A program made the position numbers and the translations under genes. Of a DNA stretch of 64,000 nucleotides, positions 9,511 to 34,755 are shown piece by piece; within the stretch, counting starts at the first letter, position 1; each line of letters begins with the position of its first letter. This stretch comes from Nemophila menziesii (taxonomy: Eukaryota > Streptophyta > Magnoliopsida > Boraginales > Hydrophyllaceae): assembly GCA_029959085.1 (NCBI GenBank), contig JARWIR010000042.1, positions 3,008,544 through 3,072,543 of the forward strand, written 5' to 3'. The notes beneath the pieces are model-generated. The model searched no databases. It was not told the origin of the DNA and saw nothing but the letters and a program-made list of their open reading frames with translations.

Positions 9511-10400
9511 ATTGTCTATGATCATTAAGTAGTGATAGGATTAGGTTGAAGATACTGGTTGTACCAGAAATATACTTTTTAACACAAGCATTAAAGTTAT
9601 CACTCGATATTTTGGTAATCTTGTAGCTTCTGTTGTTACATTTCAATTTCGAGTAATCTCGTTGTATTTTTTTATTTGAAATATATTGTCATAGCCATTT
9701 TCTCTGATCAATGTTCATTATTTTACCAATATGTTTTAACCACGTGATAAAAGTATATGGTTAATATCAAATTGAAGTAAGATATTAAAGGGAAAGTGTA
9801 TTTAAAGGAATATAATTAAGTCTTGGGAAACTCTAGAAGGCGAAAGAGGTTCCTCGACACGAATGACGTAACGTATGGGAAAATCAAGAAAAAGTAATGA
9901 TGTAATTGCTTGCGAGATGAAAAGACAACACACCTCTGCCGATCATGAAGAGTTAGTGGGAAAGATAAAGGTTATCGGGTACTTAACGATGCATTTAAAA
10001 AAAATAAACCATCACAATCGATGAAGTCGAATTACCAACTAAAGTGAAATTTACTAAAGGAAATATGTTAGCTGAAACAATTCAACCGCACGTACGAAGA
10101 TCGTAAAAACGAAAAACCCACTATACATTGATAGAATCCAGGGTTCACGAGATAGACCTCGAATACAACACGCAAAAGAAAAGTAAAATCACGACACTCT
10201 CCATAAAAGGGAAGTCTCAAAATTTAAAGGGGTATTTGACAGGGATAAATGTTGCCTACCTTGTTAAGATATGGATAGAGAGAACAACCCTTGTTGGGGG
10301 TAACGTTTCAGAGGCGCGACCTTTCACATGCACTATCACACACTATCATAGTCAGATGGAAGAGAGAACTTGAGTAGACACTAGTTGAAATTACACTATT

Positions 10401-26835: not shown

Positions 26836-26844
26836 TTGAATAAA
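26836..26844. other. Left target-site duplication (9 bp)
   Basis: TTGAATAAA, repeated at 34747-34755. The ancestral site is single-copy in the sister units. Confidence 0.95.
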
Positions 26845-26860
26845 GAGTAAATAACACTTT

Positions 26861-26958
26861 TGCCCCCTGTGTTTATACCCGATTGACAAGTTGCCCCCTA
26901 ACTCTTAAAATGCGCCTAGATGCCCCCTAAGATTTGTTTTTGTGACCCGTTACCCCCT
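26861..26958 (+). repeat. Iteron cluster in left TIR
   Basis: Four TRCCCCCT cores spaced 31, 28 and 31 bp. The first, second and fourth are preceded by a TGAC- or AAC-type half-site, giving consensus TGACNNNTTRCCCCCT; the third lacks the TGAC half. Candidate transposase-binding sites by analogy with MURA binding in MuDR TIRs. Confidence 0.7.
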
Positions 26959-26991
26959 ACTGCGTGTTCCGTCCATTTATCACCGTTAAAA

Positions 26992-27014
26992 GTGACGTGG
27001 CAATTCCACGTCAC
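26992..27014. promoter_or_regulatory. ACGT palindrome in left TIR
   Basis: Arms GTGACGTGG and CCACGTCAC around a 5-bp centre. GACGTGG/CCACGTC is an ACGT-core (bZIP-type) element. It lies ~100 bp upstream of the TATA box, so it could act as a transcriptional element for the GRF gene. Confidence 0.55.
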
Positions 27015-27111
27015 ATTTTTTTTTTTTTAAATCCAGGTGTTAATTGCGTTTTTAATTAACTTAACCCTTATTTTAACAAGGGCAAGATGGGGAATTCACT
27101 AAAGGCTATCC

Positions 27112-27119
27112 TATATATA
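27112..27119 (+). promoter_or_regulatory. TATA box in left TIR
   Basis: TATATATA followed by an A-rich leader. The GRF-protein ATG lies ~150 bp downstream at 27268. Confidence 0.65.
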
Positions 27120-27267
27120 CCCCAAAAACACTTTAACATCTTAACTTAACCAAAAACGAAAATCAAAAGGAGAAAGAGGGTTCGGTTTGGGGAAGAACTC
27201 GAAGAACACCAAAACCCTAGCTTTCTACAGTAATTCGCGTCGGATCCTCCCAATACCTTCAACGTTG

Positions 27268-27867
27268 ATGCCGATGTCGCCCCTTAAAGCCGATAGCGCT
27301 GGTTCTTCTTCGCACTACACTTCTCAAGTCCCCTATTGCAGATGCAAGAAATTAGCAAGGCTTCACACCTCTTGGACAGATACGAATCCTTGCAGGAGGT
27401 TTTACAGGTGCATGTATTGGGGGTGTTCAATGGATTGCAAGTTCTTCATGTGGTTGGATGAGCCATTGCCGGAGGCTACTAGTTCGATAATTCGAGGGCT
27501 TCTATTTAAAGATTCCAATCACTGTCTTGAGAAAGATGCAATGGAGACGAAGATGAACTTGTTGGTCTCTGATTACGGAGATATGATGCTGTTAGAGAAA
27601 AAAGCTTTTGCAGATTGGAAGCTTGAACATGAGAAAGTGAATGAACTGAACACACAGTTGGTTGAATTGCAAGAAAAAGAACAAGTTGCCTCAAAAGATT
27701 TGAAATTTGAGCGTGTGAAAGTAACTGTCTTGGAGAATGAGGTGCAACGTCTTAACATATCGATGGACACTATATCTCGGGAAAACAAGTTTCTGAAATG
27801 GACCTGCTTCATGATTATATTCCTCTTCCTCTCCATTTTGTCTTGTATTAGTGTGTCAAAGAATTAG
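27268..27867 (+). CDS. GRF zinc-finger, coiled-coil, C-terminal membrane-segment protein of the MULE
   Basis: 199-aa protein in one exon. Residues ~22-66 form a GRF-type zinc finger: a CxC pair, a conserved S-W-T-x-x-N-P segment, RRFYRC, then CKFFMWLDE. The usual NPGRRF glycine is a cysteine here. Residues ~95-170 are charged and heptad-like (coiled coil). Residues ~177-195 (WTCFMIIFLFLSILSC) are a hydrophobic helix six or so residues from the C-terminus, so the protein could be tail-anchored. I chose ATG 27268 (27274 is a second in-frame ATG); the frame is open further upstream but has no ATG there. Its promoter would be the left TIR. It occupies the mudrB position of MuDR but is unrelated to MURB. 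GRF fingers bind nucleic acid in other proteins; a role in transposition is inference, and it may be a captured host gene, since such small GRF proteins are common in plants. Confidence 0.8.
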   Translation: MPMSPLKADSAGSSSHYTSQVPYCRCKKLARLHTSWTDTNPCRRFYRCMYWGCSMDCKFFMWLDEPLPEATSSIIRGLLFKDSNHCLEKDAMETKMNLLVSDYGDMMLLEKKAFADWKLEHEKVNELNTQLVELQEKEQVASKDLKFERVKVTVLENEVQRLNISMDTISRENKFLKWTCFMIIFLFLSILSCISVSKN

Positions 27868-28464
27868 AATGTTGTTGGAGTTGTATTTTGGTGTAGTCAG
27901 AGTGATGCAGCAGGTGGTTGCAACTGATGGTGTTTTGTGTTTGATTGATCATTTTGTTGAAGTTTGCAGCTGTTGGTGTTTTGTGTTTGTTTTATCAGTT
28001 TGTTGAAGTTCTAAATCTGGTGTAATGTGTTAGTTTTCAGCTTTGTTTGTAATTGACTGTTTAACTAAAGTTTTTGGTTTTAGTTGAATTGGATTATGAA
28101 GTTATTGCGGTTTGTTTAAGTTGTGTTTTACTGTGCAATGAATATAGTATGTTAAAGAAACACTTAATGGACAATAGAATCTAATGCAATCTATAAAAAA
28201 GTAGATAAAGATAACAATAAAGTGCTGGCATTACATAGACCATAGCAAAAAAAATATTCAAAGCATCCACTTGTGCACTAGCATACAAAACACCACAGAC
28301 CTGCAATAAAGGCCTTACCAACAAAAAAACAGTATTTAAATACCACCTACACCTCATACTAGAAACCCTTAAAAACCACATCCTTGCTGCGTGAAGATCT
28401 ACTTTTACACAAAATAAAAGTCACAAAACACAGAAATATAAAACACTCAAATCTGCAGAATTCT
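27868..28464. other. Spacer between the convergent MULE genes
   Basis: AT-rich, carrying the 3' ends of both genes, with repeated TTTTGTGTTTG-type blocks on the GRF side. No iteron and no coding frame of note. Confidence 0.5.
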
Positions 28465-31400
28465 TCAATCTTTAGCTTCTTTCCTAGTTTTTACTGAAGA
28501 ACTGGTGGTTGCCTTCCTCAAACGAAGTGCTTCAGCAACAGTTACATACTTTGGATCACCCTCTCGCATTACCACCCCCTGTTTATGCTGGATTACGCGC
28601 CGCTTTTTCTCTGGTAGTCTTGTGTCTCCTTCCTGGTAGAATGATAAAGAAGAAGTTAAGCATTCTGTAGTATGTAATGGTGTAAAAAAAATCAACACAT
28701 GGCTAACCTCAGGTAAACTCCTTTTTGATCCTGATTCTGCTGGTGGTTTATCATGTTTGAACCTCACCTACATGGTAAACAAATAAAAGCATTCAATAAA
28801 GGTATCTGCAGAAGGTCTTTTTTGCAAAATTTTGTAGATCCAGGGGGCATTTAGTCACTGAAATAAAAGTCTAAGGGGTAGTTAGTCAAATCATTATATA
28901 CTTACCCCTGGGATGTTCCTTAATGAAATCTTCTTTTTTTGCTTAGGGGGGGCTTTCTCCTTTGTTTTGTCTATGCTAATCTGCTCACTTGTTTTCTCAT
29001 TCTCATTTGTTTGTGCATCCCCAGCATTTTTATGCTTTGCTTTTTCCAATAGTTCTGTTAACTTCTCCATCTTTACCTTCTGCATAAACAAAGTAAGTTA
29101 TAGGGGGTAAGTAGTCAAGACATAAACAATTATAGGGGGTAAGTTGACAAAACATAATTAGGTATAGGGGGTAAGTAGTCATAAACCATAACTTTAAAGG
29201 GGGTATTAGTACAATCCTTTAAAATTGATTTAGGAGGATTATTTGTAGTCTTCTGTTTTTGTTTCCCAGATTCATCAACCTGTAATCATTATTCACATAA
29301 TACAATGTCTTATAAACAATACCTAATGCAAAAAATAGTTTCTATTTCAATAATAATGACCTCTAATGGTGATGTAGGAGCAACAGAAGTATTTCCCTTT
29401 TGTGTCCCTGGTTCATCTTCCTCTAAAGATATAGGCATTGTGCTTGAACCTCCTGAAACTGTCTTCAATCCTTGATCCTTAATTCTACTGCTTTGGCGTA
29501 TTGGTTTTTCCACTGCTTTGTCTGGTATGCGCATCTTTGGTCTGGACTTAGGTGGACTATCAACTACTGGCTCATCTGATCTGTGTACTGGAAAGCGCAT
29601 CTTTGGTCTGGATCTGTGTGTTGAATTATCACCTGCCTCCTGTGATGTTTGTCCTGGTAAGCGCATCCTTGGTCTGGATCTAGGGGGTGAGTTAACTCCT
29701 GAATCCTTTTCCTGAGGTAAGCGCATCTTTGGTTTTGATCCTCTGGTTGTCTTAGCAATTGTTTTTTTCTCTTTGTCTTTCTCACCAATTGTATCTTTTT
29801 TTGTCACATTAAAATTTTCAGGCTCAGATGGAGTAGATTGTGGGTTAGAAGGAGCAGAGGGTTGGACTTCTAACTCATCAAACATTTTGTTAATCATCTC
29901 ATCTGGGGTCTCATCCACATCTGCATTAACACCAACACCCCTACCATCAGCTACACCATCTTCCATAACTTCATTGTCACCAACACCCCTACCATCAGCT
30001 ACACCATCTCCCATAACTTCATTATCACCTTGAATATCCTCCAATCCTACTGTTTCCTGTTCTGTAGTACTTAAATTTGCCTTACATGACCTTTTGTTAT
30101 GGCCTTCTCCCTTGCAAATTGCACATTTATGTGAAGTACCTTTCAGTAACATCTTTTGAACACCTTCAGATGTTCATTCTTTCCTCCACTTTTTAACCTG
30201 GTCCTCATCTGCCTCCTTAGTTCTTGCCCTTTTGGGTCTGCCAACCAACTTAAAAGCTACTGGAGGTTCTACACTTACAGGCCTTGTACTAGGCCACATC
30301 TTTGGTCCATTTATAGGGTATATCATTGGTGTATAAGCCTTCATATACGTCACCTTTGAGTAGCATTCGTGGACATAGTTTTCTGGGTCTTTACCTATGT
30401 ATTGAATACTCGCTATCGCATGAAAGCAAGGTATCCCAGATAGCTCCCACCTCCTGCAGGGACAGCTATTTGTATCTAAATCTACAGCATACGAATCTGT
30501 TCCAAGGTTCCTTACTTCAAATTTCATTTCACCGCAAAACACTGCATGCCACTTTCCACTGTTTGTTTTACCTTTATTCACCAACTTCCTAACCTTAGGA
30601 CATAGATCACCTTCGTATTTTGTCATCCATGCTCTTTTAGACTGAAGCCTTTTCAAACTATACATCCTGAGACCCTCTAGTATGAGGATGATAGACTTGT
30701 CCCTGAGCAAAAAAAACCTTTACTGTCAGTTGTGTAGGGGGTAGGAAGTAGTAATTATCTAAAACTAAGTAGGGGGGGAAGTGGTCATTAAATAAAACTT
30801 TATAGGGGGTAAGTAGTCATTATGTAAAACTAAGTAGGGGGTAAGTAGTCATTAAATAAAACTTTATAGGGGGTAAGTAGTCATTAAATAAAACTTTATA
30901 GGGGGTACGTAGTCATAAATTAGCACTTTATAGGGGGTAAGTAGTCATAATACCTGACTTTTTTTATGGCATTGTTATAGCTTTCACAGATGTTGTTAAG
31001 TAGAAGATCACATTTTGTAACAGTACTAAAGTGAGACCTTGTCCATGTCTTGGGATCTAAACTAGATAGCCAATTGAATGCCTCCTCATTCATGTTTTTA
31101 ATCTCAGCCATGACCTCATTAAATATGTATTCTGTGGGGGCCCTAGCAGCTTCCCAAACTTTGTCTTTTAAGGCCATTCCAGGATGTTTGATTTTGAAAT
31201 TATTGTAGAGATGCCTTACACAATGTCTATGTTCAATATCTGGAAGCATGTCACTCATCACTTGAAGCAAACCCTATACACACATACATTTAGAAATAAA
31301 TTCAGTGTTCTAAAGAAAACAATTTAATTAAGCCAGTGAAGGATAACCAACCTTTTGTCTATCTGATATGAAAGTCCATTCTTCTTGATTAGTAATACCA

Positions 31401-34327
31401 AGATCTTGTATCAACAGATTAAAAAACCATCTCCAAGAATTGCTATCTTCTTTCTCAGCTACACAATACAAAATTGGGAATATACAATTGTTCCCATCAA
31501 TACCAACTGCTGTCAAAATTACACCAGGATGTGGACCTTTCAAGTGACATCCATCAACCCCAACAACCTTTCTACAACCCTCTAAAAATCCCCTTCTGCA
31601 ACCCTCTAAGCAAACATAAATTCTTTGAAATCTTTCTACTCCAGTTACCTCATCAGTAGTTGTTTCAATTGCTACAGTACTTCCAGGGTTACTTCTTCTT
31701 ATTTCTGCTGCATAATCAAAAAGCTTTTTGTATTGATCCTTGTATTCAGCCTCAATCATGCTTTTTGCAGACTTATATGCCCTGTAGCATGTTCTGGTAC
31801 TAACATTAACTGAATAATCCCGATGCACTAACTGTTGAAAGTCACTCACATTACTGTAGAGGTTCAATCTTATCATATCTTTAAAAGTATTTGCCAAGAA
31901 CTTTGCAGTAACATGCTTATGGTTAAGGTTTTTACCACAACTATGTTTATTACATAAACTCATTATCACCAGCCCACCAACCTTTTCTTTATGCGATGCA
32001 TATAAAAACCACCCACATCCTGCTCCTTTGCAAACAACTCTAATCCGATTCCAATCGTTCTTCACAAACTTAATGTTGACCACCTTTCTTATGGCATGTG
32101 TTCTTACTGCTTGTCTAAGATCAGAGGCATTCGCAAATGTCAATCCTAAAACAAATCTAGGCTTCTGCATATCTATACTCGCCTTAAATAGGGGGTATTT
32201 CATCTTTTTCTTGCGCAACTTTTTATTTTTTCCATCTTCATCTGTACCAGAAGAAGAACTAGCTGTACTCAGATCTTCGGAATCATGTATATATTCATCC
32301 GAATCTGTCCCACCACCAACATCATCACTATCGCCTTCAGAAGCATCTGCATCATCATTTTCCACATTCATTCTATCCACTTCCACATCCGAGTCAATGA
32401 ATGTATTATAATCCTGGTCGTCATCACCCTCACTCAAATCGATGTCGCTATCTATTATATAATCGTCATCAGTTGTGGATTCTTCATCCACATCTTCATC
32501 AGGTTCAGACAACTTCTTTTTCTTTTGAGAACTATCTTTCCTACAACCTTTATTGTAACTCTCTCGTTTGGTACCACTAGGGCCCACTCCTTCTACTCTT
32601 GTTCTTTTTATACTAGCCCTCGTACTTTTCTTGTTACCTACTGTTTCTGTTTTCTTTACTTGTGAACTGGTTTGTTTCTTCTGTTGTTGTATAACCAACT
32701 TCTTCTTCTTTATGACATTAGCAAGTAACTCATTATCACTGAACTCCTCATCCACATCTTCTTCACCATCAGCTTTGTTAATGACATTATCCGAGTCATC
32801 TGTTAGGTCTTCATCTATAAGCCGGAAAGGCCTTAATGGAGATTTATGTTTGGAACTCCTCGTAGTCACATTATCTTCAGTGTTCAAAGCTTTCAACACT
32901 TTATCCAACATATCATTAACAGACTTCTCCTTCTCTCCTATATCAGAGAGTTGTTCTTCCAAACTGTCATCCCCTTCCTTCTCATTAATTTGTGTGCTTT
33001 GTTCTTCAGAAACAACCTGAAACAAAGAATGAAATATTTAGGGGGTAATTTGTCAAGCATACGAAATAGTAAGGGGTAAACTGTCACACAACCTTTGTCC
33101 CGTCTTTGCAATTCTGGTGTTCTTCTTCAACATTACTATCATCCACTTTATTATGGACTTCATCAGCAGTCTGAGATACTTCTTCACCATTAACTCCTTC
33201 CTCCTTTTCACCTTCATTGTTATCACAAGTCTGAGCTCCTTCTTCAGAAACAACCTGAAACAAAGAATGAAATATTTAGGGGGTAATTTGTCAAGCATAC
33301 GAAATAGTAAGGGGTAAACTGTCACACAACCTTTGTCCCGTCTTTGCAATTCTGGTGTTCTTCTTCAACATTACTATCATCCACTTTATTATGGACTTCA
33401 TCAGCAGTCTGAGATACTTCTTCACCATTAACTCCTTCCTCCTTTTCACCTTCATTGTTATCACAGGTATGAGCTCCTTCTTCAGAAACAACCTGAAACA
33501 AAGAATGAAATATAAGTTAAAGAACTGAAAGGGGTAAACTGTCAAATGACTTTCTACCTTTAAACCTTCTTCTACAAGCTTGTTTTCCTCTAAGCTTTTC
33601 ACTTCATTACAGTTTTGAACTAATTCTTGTTCATCTACTTCTACTTCATTAACATTGACTTCTTCTCGCTGGTTAACTGTTTCTTCATCCTTTTTCCACT
33701 TTAGTAACAAAGGCATGAAGATGGGAGATTGAAGAACTTGGTCATCAGGGCCTATGGGATTATTCACAACGTAAAGGTCCACAGTTACGTTGTTGTCTGC
33801 GATTCTACACATCTCCATGCCTTTGTCCTCGCTATCTAAACATACTAACCCATCAGGTAGATTTGAACCCACTTTCAAATAATAAACATCAGAGTAACAA
33901 ATTACACCCAATTTCGAAAGAATTTTCCTAAGAACTGGTATACTAAACTTGTCATAATGACAACCGTCAACGTACTCTATGCTCACTTCATGATAGCAAC
34001 TCTTATCTTCATTAAAGAACCCACCGAAGTGAATCCTTAGTGCGAATTTATCTGTTAAACAAGCAAATTTTAATTGAATAGATTAGTTACCAAATACATT
34101 AAGAATCACAAAATGGAAAAACAATAATCAAACTACGGGTATGGTAACCGAATCCCGTAAAATCTGCTATTATTACTAAGAAAATCCCTCAATCCACGCG
34201 TGATATCTATGTATGTAATAAATTTAGTACAAAACCCTATATTTTGGGGTTAAAGGATCTTAGCCAATGAGCAAGGATTTAGGGTTAATAAATAAACCCA
34301 CTTACTCCATTGATTTGCCTGCGCCAT
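28465..34327 (-). CDS. mudrA-like MULE transposase (11 inferred exons, one in-frame stop)
   Basis: Inferred exons, 5' to 3' on the - strand: 34306-34327, 33558-34051, 33331-33492, 33093-33254, 31352-33016, 30954-31273, 29361-30702, ~29193-29279, 28906-29079, 28708-28767 and 28465-28632. All have GT/AG borders and joins that keep frame; exon 8 is tentative. Domains: N-terminal PB1-like segment (~1-110), acidic region (~115-560), MuDR DNA-binding domain (~568-650), and MULE DDE core with Asp768 (VVGVDGCHLKG) and Asp832 (FISDRQKGL). A SWIM finger follows (Cys1022, Cys1024, Cys1034, His1036). A TGA at 30174-30176 ends the frame after residue 1117. Beyond it, in the same frame, are a CCHC zinc knuckle and a ~430-residue basic, repeat-rich tail. 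The catalytic part is therefore complete and the stop removes only the tail. It probably excises and inserts the element by cut-and-paste. Confidence 0.85.
28842..28888 (-). repeat. Two iterons in transposase intron 9
   Basis: TGACTAAATGCCCCCT and TGACTAACTACCCCTT, 31 bp apart, inside the intron 28768-28905. Confidence 0.75.
29102..29213 (-). repeat. Four-copy iteron array in transposase intron 8
   Basis: Copies begin at 29102, 29134, 29166 and 29198, an exact 32-bp period. The last (TGTACTAATACCCCCT) is degenerate and overlaps the tentative end of exon 8. Confidence 0.8.
29520..29725 (-). repeat. Coding repeat: four RPKMRxP motifs
   Basis: In the transposase frame downstream of the TGA, four copies of (S/K)(K/R)P(K/R)MR(L/F/I)P occur every ~22-24 residues. 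They are basic and proline-flanked, like AT-hook-type minor-groove binders, and lie in the tail that the stop would remove. Confidence 0.7.
29935..30035 (-). repeat. Coding repeat: 16-residue acidic duplication
   Basis: Two adjacent copies of a 16-aa block, GDNEVM(G/E)DGVADGRGV, with a 48-bp period. It is in frame, just after the zinc knuckle in the tail. Confidence 0.75.
30174..30176 (-). other. In-frame TGA in transposase
   Basis: The codon falls between ...KKWRKE and TSEGVQK, seven codons before the next in-frame Met. The frame continues without a shift into the zinc knuckle CAICKGEGHNKRSC. TGA is one C-to-T step from CGA (Arg), consistent with CpG deamination. The only intron I could draw around it would be 34 bp, too short for a plant intron. 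Confidence 0.8.
30736..30947 (-). repeat. Seven-copy iteron array in transposase intron 6
   Basis: In - strand form the copies read TGACTACTTACCCCCT, at + coordinates 30736 (degenerate), 30771, 30804, 30836, 30868, 30900 and 30932. The last five have an exact 32-bp period with an ATAAAGTTTTATTTA-type spacer. The array occupies most of the 251-bp intron 30703-30953. Confidence 0.85.
33040..33086 (-). repeat. Two iterons in transposase intron 4
   Basis: Duplicate of the intron 3 pair, within the 76-bp intron 33017-33092. Confidence 0.7.
33278..33324 (-). repeat. Two iterons in transposase intron 3
   Basis: TGACAGTTTACCCCTT and TGACAAATTACCCCCT, 31 bp apart, fill most of the 76-bp intron 33255-33330. 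Confidence 0.7.
33529..33544 (-). repeat. Single TIR-like iteron in transposase intron 2
   Basis: TGACAGTTTACCCCTT within the 65-bp intron 33493-33557. It matches the TIR consensus except for one C fewer. Confidence 0.65.
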
Positions 34328-34471
34328 TGATCTTCTTCAAAGCACATGAACTTTGCTTTTCTGGGTTTGGATTTGGTGTTCGTCGAGTTCTTCAAAAATC
34401 CCGCGCTCCTTCAGTTTTCTCCTTTTGATTTTCGTTTTTGGTTAAGTTAAGATGTTAAAGTGTTTTTGGGG

Positions 34472-34479
34472 TATATATA
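34472..34479 (-). promoter_or_regulatory. TATA box in right TIR
   Basis: Mirror TATATATA, ~145 bp upstream of the inferred transposase ATG (34327). Confidence 0.65.
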
Positions 34480-34576
34480 GGATAGCCTTTAGTGAATTCC
34501 CCATCTTGCCCTTGTTAAAATAAGGGTTAAGTTAATTAAAAACGCAATTAACACCTGGATTTTAAAAAAAAAAAAT

Positions 34577-34599
34577 GTGACGTGGAATTGCCACGTCAC
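34577..34599. promoter_or_regulatory. ACGT palindrome in right TIR
   Basis: Mirror copy of the left palindrome, placed ~100 bp upstream of the right TATA box, facing the transposase gene. Confidence 0.55.
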
Positions 34600-34632
34600 T
34601 TTTAACGGTGATAAATGGACGGAACACGCAGT

Positions 34633-34739
34633 AGGGGGTAACGGGTCACAAAAACAAATCTTGGGGGGCATCTAGGCGCATTTTAAGAGTTAGGGGGCAA
34701 CCTGTCAATCGGGTATAAACACAGGGGGCAAAAGTGTCA
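34633..34739 (-). repeat. Iteron cluster in right TIR
   Basis: Inverted equivalent of the left cluster, at about 34633, 34663 (degenerate), 34692 and 34723 in + strand form AGGGGGYAANNNGTCA. Here the outermost copy has the full GTCA half. Confidence 0.7.
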
Positions 34740-34746
34740 TTTACTC

Positions 34747-34755
34747 TTGAATAAA
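34747..34755. other. Right target-site duplication (9 bp)
   Basis: TTGAATAAA, partner of 26836-26844. Confidence 0.95.

Follow-up and report, generated by a model that had tools for sequence, protein, structure and literature searches.

The window examined here, 64,000 nucleotides of the Nemophila menziesii assembly GCA_029959085.1 (contig JARWIR010000042.1, positions 3,008,544 to 3,072,543 of the forward strand), contains a complete Mutator-like element (MULE) whose transposase gene carries, in six predicted introns, rows of the short motif (iteron) that is also found in the terminal inverted repeats (TIRs) of the element. The element displayed the features of Mutator-like transposons, namely a target duplication of about 9 bp, long TIRs and MULE transposase domains; the two TIRs, about 331 bp each, were 98% complementary in an inverted-repeat comparison that included the target-site duplication. 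Its main features, in window coordinates, are as follows.

26845..34746, no strand assigned: complete MULE of 7902 bp, with a 9-bp target-site duplication and empty sites
26836..26844, no strand assigned: left target-site duplication TTGAATAAA, 9 bp
34747..34755, no strand assigned: right target-site duplication TTGAATAAA, 9 bp
26845..27175, plus strand: left TIR, with perfect iterons at 26884 and 26943 and weak ones at 26852 and 26913
34416..34746, minus strand: right TIR, with perfect iterons at 34707-34692 and 34648-34633 and weak ones starting at 34739 and 34678
28465..34327, minus strand: transposase gene, with 11 predicted exons and 10 GT-AG introns (ATG at 34327, stop at 28465)
27268..27867, plus strand: second gene, encoding a GRF zinc ribbon in a single open reading frame (ORF), without the motif at up to two mismatches

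The transposase matched the Pfam families DBD_Tnp_Mut (1.6e-11), MULE (1.5e-7) and SWIM (3.7e-7), the end of the MULE core domain being encoded behind intron 5, and its best protein match was from Buddleja (50% identity over half of the query). The window copy has a single in-frame stop, in exon 7; this exon (29516-30029) also contains 66-bp and 48-bp repeats, and its length varies among copies of the family. The predicted introns account for 20% of the transposase transcript. The GRF ORF matched Zn_ribbon_GRF with an E value of 1.4e-5 and 25.5 bits, slightly below the curated cut-off of 25.9, and, judged by eye, the zinc ribbon is followed by a coiled-coil-like stretch and then a hydrophobic tail.

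An initial annotation of this DNA had described the TIR motif TGACNNNTTRCCCCCT as occurring four times in each TIR, with one copy degenerate, and about 18 more times inside the element. Four copies per TIR were indeed found, but only two of them are perfect, the other two being weak (three or four mismatches, the outermost with one extra base), and the internal number ranged from 16 to 19 depending on the cut-off. When the whole window was scanned at up to two mismatches, 24 matches were obtained, compared with 2.17 expected and a maximum of 7 in 100 shuffles, and 20 of the 24 fell within the MULE. Sixteen lay in predicted introns of the transposase gene (one in intron 2, two in intron 3, two in intron 4, six in intron 6, three in intron 8 and two in intron 9), whereas none was found in the 4662 bp of exons or in introns 1, 5, 7 and 10; shuffled introns gave a mean of 0.25 and a maximum of 3 in 300 rounds. 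This distribution, absent from exons and from the GRF gene, agrees with the initial description, as does the orientation: each of the 16 internal copies lies on the minus strand, that of the right TIR and the sense strand of the transposase. At up to three mismatches, 17 sense copies were counted in introns and two in exons (29213 in exon 8 and 32205 in exon 5), together with one antisense copy in exons. The introns that bear on the argument are listed below.

33493..33557, minus strand: intron 2, one iteron
33255..33330, minus strand: intron 3, two iterons 31 bp apart
33017..33092, minus strand: intron 4, two iterons with a 31-bp period; belongs, like intron 3, to a tandem repeat of 238 bp
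31274..31351, minus strand: intron 5, without iteron, at a position common to other MULE loci
30703..30953, minus strand: intron 6, six iterons and one degenerate iteron with a 32-bp period, at a position intronless in 40 of 40 other MULE loci
29080..29186, minus strand: intron 8 as predicted in the window copy, three iterons; with the GT that 15 of the 16 readable copies have 30 bases upstream (29216), the intron would include a degenerate fourth iteron
28768..28905, minus strand: intron 9, two iterons 31 bp apart

The exact 32-bp period claimed for several arrays was observed in intron 6 (32, 32, 32, 32, 32 and 36, the last step leading to a three-mismatch copy) and in intron 8 (32 and 32), but introns 3, 4 and 9 have 31, and the statement that the motif makes up most of the 76-bp introns did not stand, its coverage being only 42%. 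The copy said to overlap the end of exon 8 does so in the window copy, which alone among the 16 readable copies lacks the upstream GT; because the other 15 have it, this motif copy is intronic in the family, and a generally exonic position in exon 8 was ruled out. Between 33002 and 33513, one exon and its iteron-bearing intron are duplicated as the 238-bp unit, and one to four such exons occur in other copies.

We extended the motif search to relatives of the element, as the initial annotation had proposed, by fetching 20 loci around exact motif matches on a single contig, C1; these loci range from near-identical to about 83% identical in exon 5 (L011 and L012). Three of them (L010, L012 and L020), in which a second TIR was not recognisable in the stretch examined, were excluded from the count, leaving 18 sequences with two separate TIRs (17 of the 20 loci and the window copy). 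The layout recurred in these 18 sequences: internal noncoding DNA (37.4 kb) contained 287 matches, the TIRs 73 and exon-mapped sequence (90.1 kb) one, and no antisense motif was found inside the element in any of the 18. The sole exon-mapped match, in L011, sits behind that copy's own donor. With looser borders and all 20 sequences, 316 sense matches and one antisense match were counted, the antisense one being in L012, where a single TIR was found. Because the 20 loci had been chosen by the motif, a motif-blind check was made with the loci on C1 up to 107.2 Mb in a list obtained by protein similarity; an array was present at 15 of 15, within 0.6 kb at 14 and across about 10 kb at one, where exon 5 is interrupted. 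Such an interruption of exon 5 was seen in L010, the last 51 bases of the exon being in the locus and the matching piece about 10 kb upstream. Two further copies, L027 and L028, have internal deletions, yet both TIRs and some intron arrays are kept.

The spacing of the arrays was equally regular across the family. Among steps shorter than 100 bp in 20 sequences, 194 of 202 were of 31 bp (70 times) or 32 bp (124 times), and 31-32 bp corresponds to about three turns of B-DNA. The spacers differ mostly between introns, with introns 6 and 8 as the exception. Intron 6 contained between five and eight units among 19 family copies and had 13 lengths, whereas introns 5, 7 and 10 had two or three lengths each; its lengths fall in all three frames and its GT and AG were kept in 19 of 19 copies, a pattern not to be expected of translated sequence. 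The sister pair L011 and L012 has, in the same intron 6, mostly 31-bp units of its own type, and decay of a unit was seen in intron 2 of L011.

To compare the motif with its surroundings, we aligned introns 2, 4, 8 and 9 of the window copy with those of L011 and took the 12 fixed motif positions as the core. The core differed at 5 of 96 sites, the free motif positions at 5 of 32 and the remaining intron at 70 of 254 (Fisher p = 9e-7). The outcome was similar when the motif was defined on L011 instead (core 5/87) and when L012, a close relative of L011, was used (core 5/84, rest 57/201); in intron 9 alone, the cores differed at 2 of 24 sites and the remainder at 30 of 106. Differences were seen at 58 of 227 sites in motif-free introns, at 25 of 79 fourfold sites and at 31 of 538 sites in first or second codon positions. 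In these alignments the rate of change of the motif core resembles that of protein-changing sites, and the rate in the spacers that of free DNA; this is a comparison of one pair of lineages in which slots were recognised by consensus likeness, so that some bias to conservation is included.

The origin of these introns was approached with the Buddleja protein as query against the assembly (1.52 Gb, 361 contigs), with 64 loci scored of 5056 candidates. Each locus gave two matches meeting at about residue 392-415, the place of intron 5. The second match ended at 512-521, the place of intron 6, in 24 of 24 family loci and read on to at least 559 in 40 of 40 others, many of which are near-identical and represent far fewer independent lineages. 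Three distinct comparison loci, L033-L035, aligned without gaps over the R|DK junction at which intron 6 is placed. A cousin family, X (L037 with its flanks L040 and L041, and a 99.5% copy in L038), encodes a core protein 61-81% identical, and its intron 6 is a stretch of 98 bp in which three units at 32-bp intervals lie between a short donor and a short acceptor. Family X reads openly through the places of introns 2-4 (the copy read has a frameshift further on), and its intron 5 has iterons too, as do two later apparent introns and, with two copies, the interval before the GRF gene, all internal copies being sense. The initial annotation had suggested that the introns may have been built from TIR-type repeats. 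For intron 6 this is likely, and introns 2-4, which fit the same origin, were probably also made from such DNA; however, because family X carries iterons in the shared intron 5, iterons also enter existing introns. We accordingly rejected the idea that all iteron-bearing introns are new, since intron 5, which other MULEs have as well, lacks the motif in the window family but bears iterons in X. The simplest history suggested by these comparisons places the gain of intron 6 between the divergence from other MULEs and the branching-off of X; introns 2-4 would then be later gains, or X would have lost them.

An origin of intron 6 from an inserted miniature inverted-repeat transposable element (MITE) was unsupported, as neither inverted ends nor a 9-bp duplication was seen around it. 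Two short MITE-like elements, L036 (1640-2750) and L039 (1700-2070), tie intronic and terminal units together, because their ends are iteron rows that include the commonest intronic form of the motif. The likeness of the spacers is suggestive only: in 18 comparisons between intron and TIR spacers, one was striking (the third unit of the L039 TIR against intron 6, with 0 of 1000 shuffles as good), and the other 17 were unremarkable, with 71 to 1000 of 1000 shuffles as good. In blastn, the L039 end matched introns 6 and 8 over about two units (E values of 4e-9 and 1.4e-8) and the window TIR with 8e-18, much of this being carried by the motif itself. In L033-L035 (41-47% protein identity), no motif was found at up to two mismatches save one antisense match in L033; no inverted repeat longer than 35 bases was seen in these loci, which makes them weak comparators for the TIR motif.

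The transposon family to which the window copy belongs has been active. When the assembly was searched with the protein, 143 loci out of 3434 candidates were scored; these gave 144 matches at 92-100% identity, two of which are pieces of one locus, corresponding to about 143 loci, and most of these had no stops in the stretch from the DNA-binding domain (DBD) to the DDE domain. The insertion of the window copy is certain, because four neighbouring tandem units each have an empty site that matches the joined flanks of the element. In one the match covers 609 of 609 bases; in two it is full-length, with 99.8 and 98.9% identity; and in the fourth it spans the junction over 456 of 609 bases at 99.3%. 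The insertion also looks recent, since the units are 99.2-99.8% alike over long stretches, the element is present in one unit only and its TIRs are 98% alike. The unit in question, of about 12.4 kb, forms five tandem repeats across the window (1-64000). Each has, on its minus strand, a gene for a 618-amino-acid protein of the SRA/Pre-SET/SET (SUVH) type; the proteins are 100% identical, the fifth being cut by the window end, and a truncated SET remnant is also present. The sequence TGAAACGTTACCCCCA, two mismatches from the motif, occurs at 10295, 22777, 43133 and 55544, the corresponding places of four tandem units, probably by chance.

A candidate for the protein that would recognise the motif is the transposase itself, whose DNA-binding region is encoded as follows.

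31900..32161, minus strand: coding part of the zinc-finger DNA-binding region, C-x4-C-x23-H-x-C

In 31 sequences, the ligands C52 and C57 were conserved at 90% or more and H81 and C83 were invariant, and the spacing fits the WRKY-GCM1 zinc finger pattern (for WRKY spacings, see PMC4387944). The best Foldseek match of the finger region was Aft2 bound to DNA (E 3.9e-4). AtWRKY18 did not rise above background in the fold list; a sequence search of the PDB returned 13 weak matches, with no known DNA-binding relative among them. Because the motif core is conserved, the spacing is about three helical turns and the finger keeps a conserved WRKY-GCM1 pattern, binding of the transposase to its own introns, which the initial annotation had raised, is plausible. 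We consider that the motif arrays are probably bound by a protein of the element, judging from the sequence comparisons. Under the mechanism that we propose, the element's own protein, with the transposase as the best candidate, would bind the iteron rows in the six predicted introns, the zinc finger reading the TGAC part of the motif and iterons about three helical turns apart being bound side by side. Such binding would mark the element's own copies and shield them from silencing, as has been reported of VANC21 acting on VANDAL21 and of MURA acting on the TIRs of Mu. Iteron DNA of the TIR type would have come to lie in coding sequence and been spliced out, giving rise to at least intron 6 and probably introns 2-4. 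Antisense iterons would be avoided, since the reverse complement of the commonest copy, AGGGGGTAAGTAGTCA, contains the donor-like GGTAAGT and would disturb splicing. That the intronic rows are putative binding sites of this kind with an anti-silencing role is a tentative proposal, to which we give a little less than an even chance.

Several other explanations were weighed against this proposal. By occupying the intronic arrays, the transposase might repress its own transcription, or the arrays might soak up excess protein; core conservation and layout fit such autoregulation or titration equally, the internal arrays of the window copy are confined to the transposase gene with none in the GRF gene, and Hsmar1 is documented to be restrained by competition among binding sites (PMC3687335). 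We regard it as unlikely, given that some 143 loci at 92-100% identity, mostly open from DBD to DDE, indicate a family not much held back and that the Hsmar1 model finds secondary sites a weak brake (PMC3687335). Somewhat less likely still is a role in the RNA, in which TGAC would act as the branch site and the C-rich part would supply the pyrimidine tract; the iterons would then aid splicing, and DNA binding in introns would be irrelevant. The sense-only orientation agrees with this, as does the distance of 22-36 bases between the last iteron (at up to three mismatches) and the 3' splice site in introns 2, 3, 4, 6 and 8. However, the first iterons of introns 3, 4, 6 and 8 begin at +6 or +7, close to the 5' site, those of intron 9 have conserved cores although they end no closer than 74 bases to the 3' splice site, introns 1, 5, 7 and 10 manage without the motif, and both TIRs carry the same motif.

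The variation of intron 6 from five to eight units in 19 copies and the decay of some units, as in intron 2 of L011, would be expected if the arrays were functionless minisatellites, copied inward from TIR pieces during transposition and grown by slippage. Differences in the cores, however, are about one fifth as frequent as in the remainder of these introns, and the 31-32 bp spacing is held while the spacer sequence mostly is not; we therefore consider neutrality slightly less probable than a splicing role. The shared motif and similar spacing of TIRs and introns could also reflect a scaffold for the transpososome, in which internal sites help to pair the ends or draw transposase to long copies. 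This appears improbable, because in the short MITE-like relatives L036 and L039 the motif is confined to the neighbourhood of the ends, and internal arrays are thus seemingly not required. The proposal of self-recognition through intronic arrays can be carried one step further, with more doubt: a land-plant transposon may make spliceosomal introns in its own transposase gene from its own end repeats, and these introns may double as docking arrays for the encoded protein, the 32-bp unit then being end, intron block and self-recognition tag in one. If true, this would be a multi-copy birth of introns in a land plant with its states side by side in one genome, from three units in the cousin family to five to eight in the main family, and the roughly 20 predicted sites per element would offer a natural test set for the recognition of self copies by a transposase or helper protein.

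Among known systems, introners are new introns formed from repeated mobile DNA, none of which was reported in land plants in the study concerned (PMC9860276). The creation of introns from such DNA is common to both. Introners are recognised by near-identical copies in a large number of host genes and by absence of the intron from relatives at its position; the latter was found for intron 6, in the element's own gene. Here, by contrast, direct arrays of the element's end repeats lie in its own gene, and no inverted ends or target duplication were seen around the intron. Muta1 of Aedes aegypti is likewise a MULE with tandem subterminal repeats in its TIRs, but its repeats are 12 bp long and are described in the TIRs (PMC5225508). 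In maize, MURA, also a MULE transposase, binds a conserved TIR motif of about 32 bp in MuDR (PMC3310237) and induces hypomethylation of TIRs (PMC10398659), whereas arrays of the motif in transposase introns are not mentioned for MuDR in the sections of these two reports that we consulted. In open-access papers, as far as their searched text extends, we did not find a MULE with introns of its transposase gene made out of its TIR iteron.

The closest parallel is VANDAL21 of Arabidopsis, a MULE with fast-evolving tandem arrays of short motifs in introns, intergenic and terminal noncoding regions, which are bound by VANC21 with removal of silencing (PMC5735166, PMC10398659); the claim in the initial annotation that no MULE with such a layout had been described was therefore too strong (PMC5735166). 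Tandem arrays in introns and termini are likewise present in the window MULE. The VANDAL21 motif is YAGTATTAY, whereas here the motif is the TIR iteron itself; VANDAL elements have degenerate TIRs, whereas those of the window MULE are long, intact and 98% alike; and a GRF gene is present here, some introns seem built from the motif, and binding, known for VANDAL21, is predicted from sequence. The VANC domains DUF1985 and DUF287 had no match in the GRF ORF or in four segments of the transposase. By the features tested, the window MULE is not a VANDAL. If the proposed function is correct, the VANC-type logic of sequence-specific anti-silencing through intron arrays would extend to a MULE whose TIRs are intact and in which no VANC gene has been recognised. 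Compared with VANDAL21, the element differs in having its TIR iteron as the intronic motif and in that some introns have apparently been made from this iteron.
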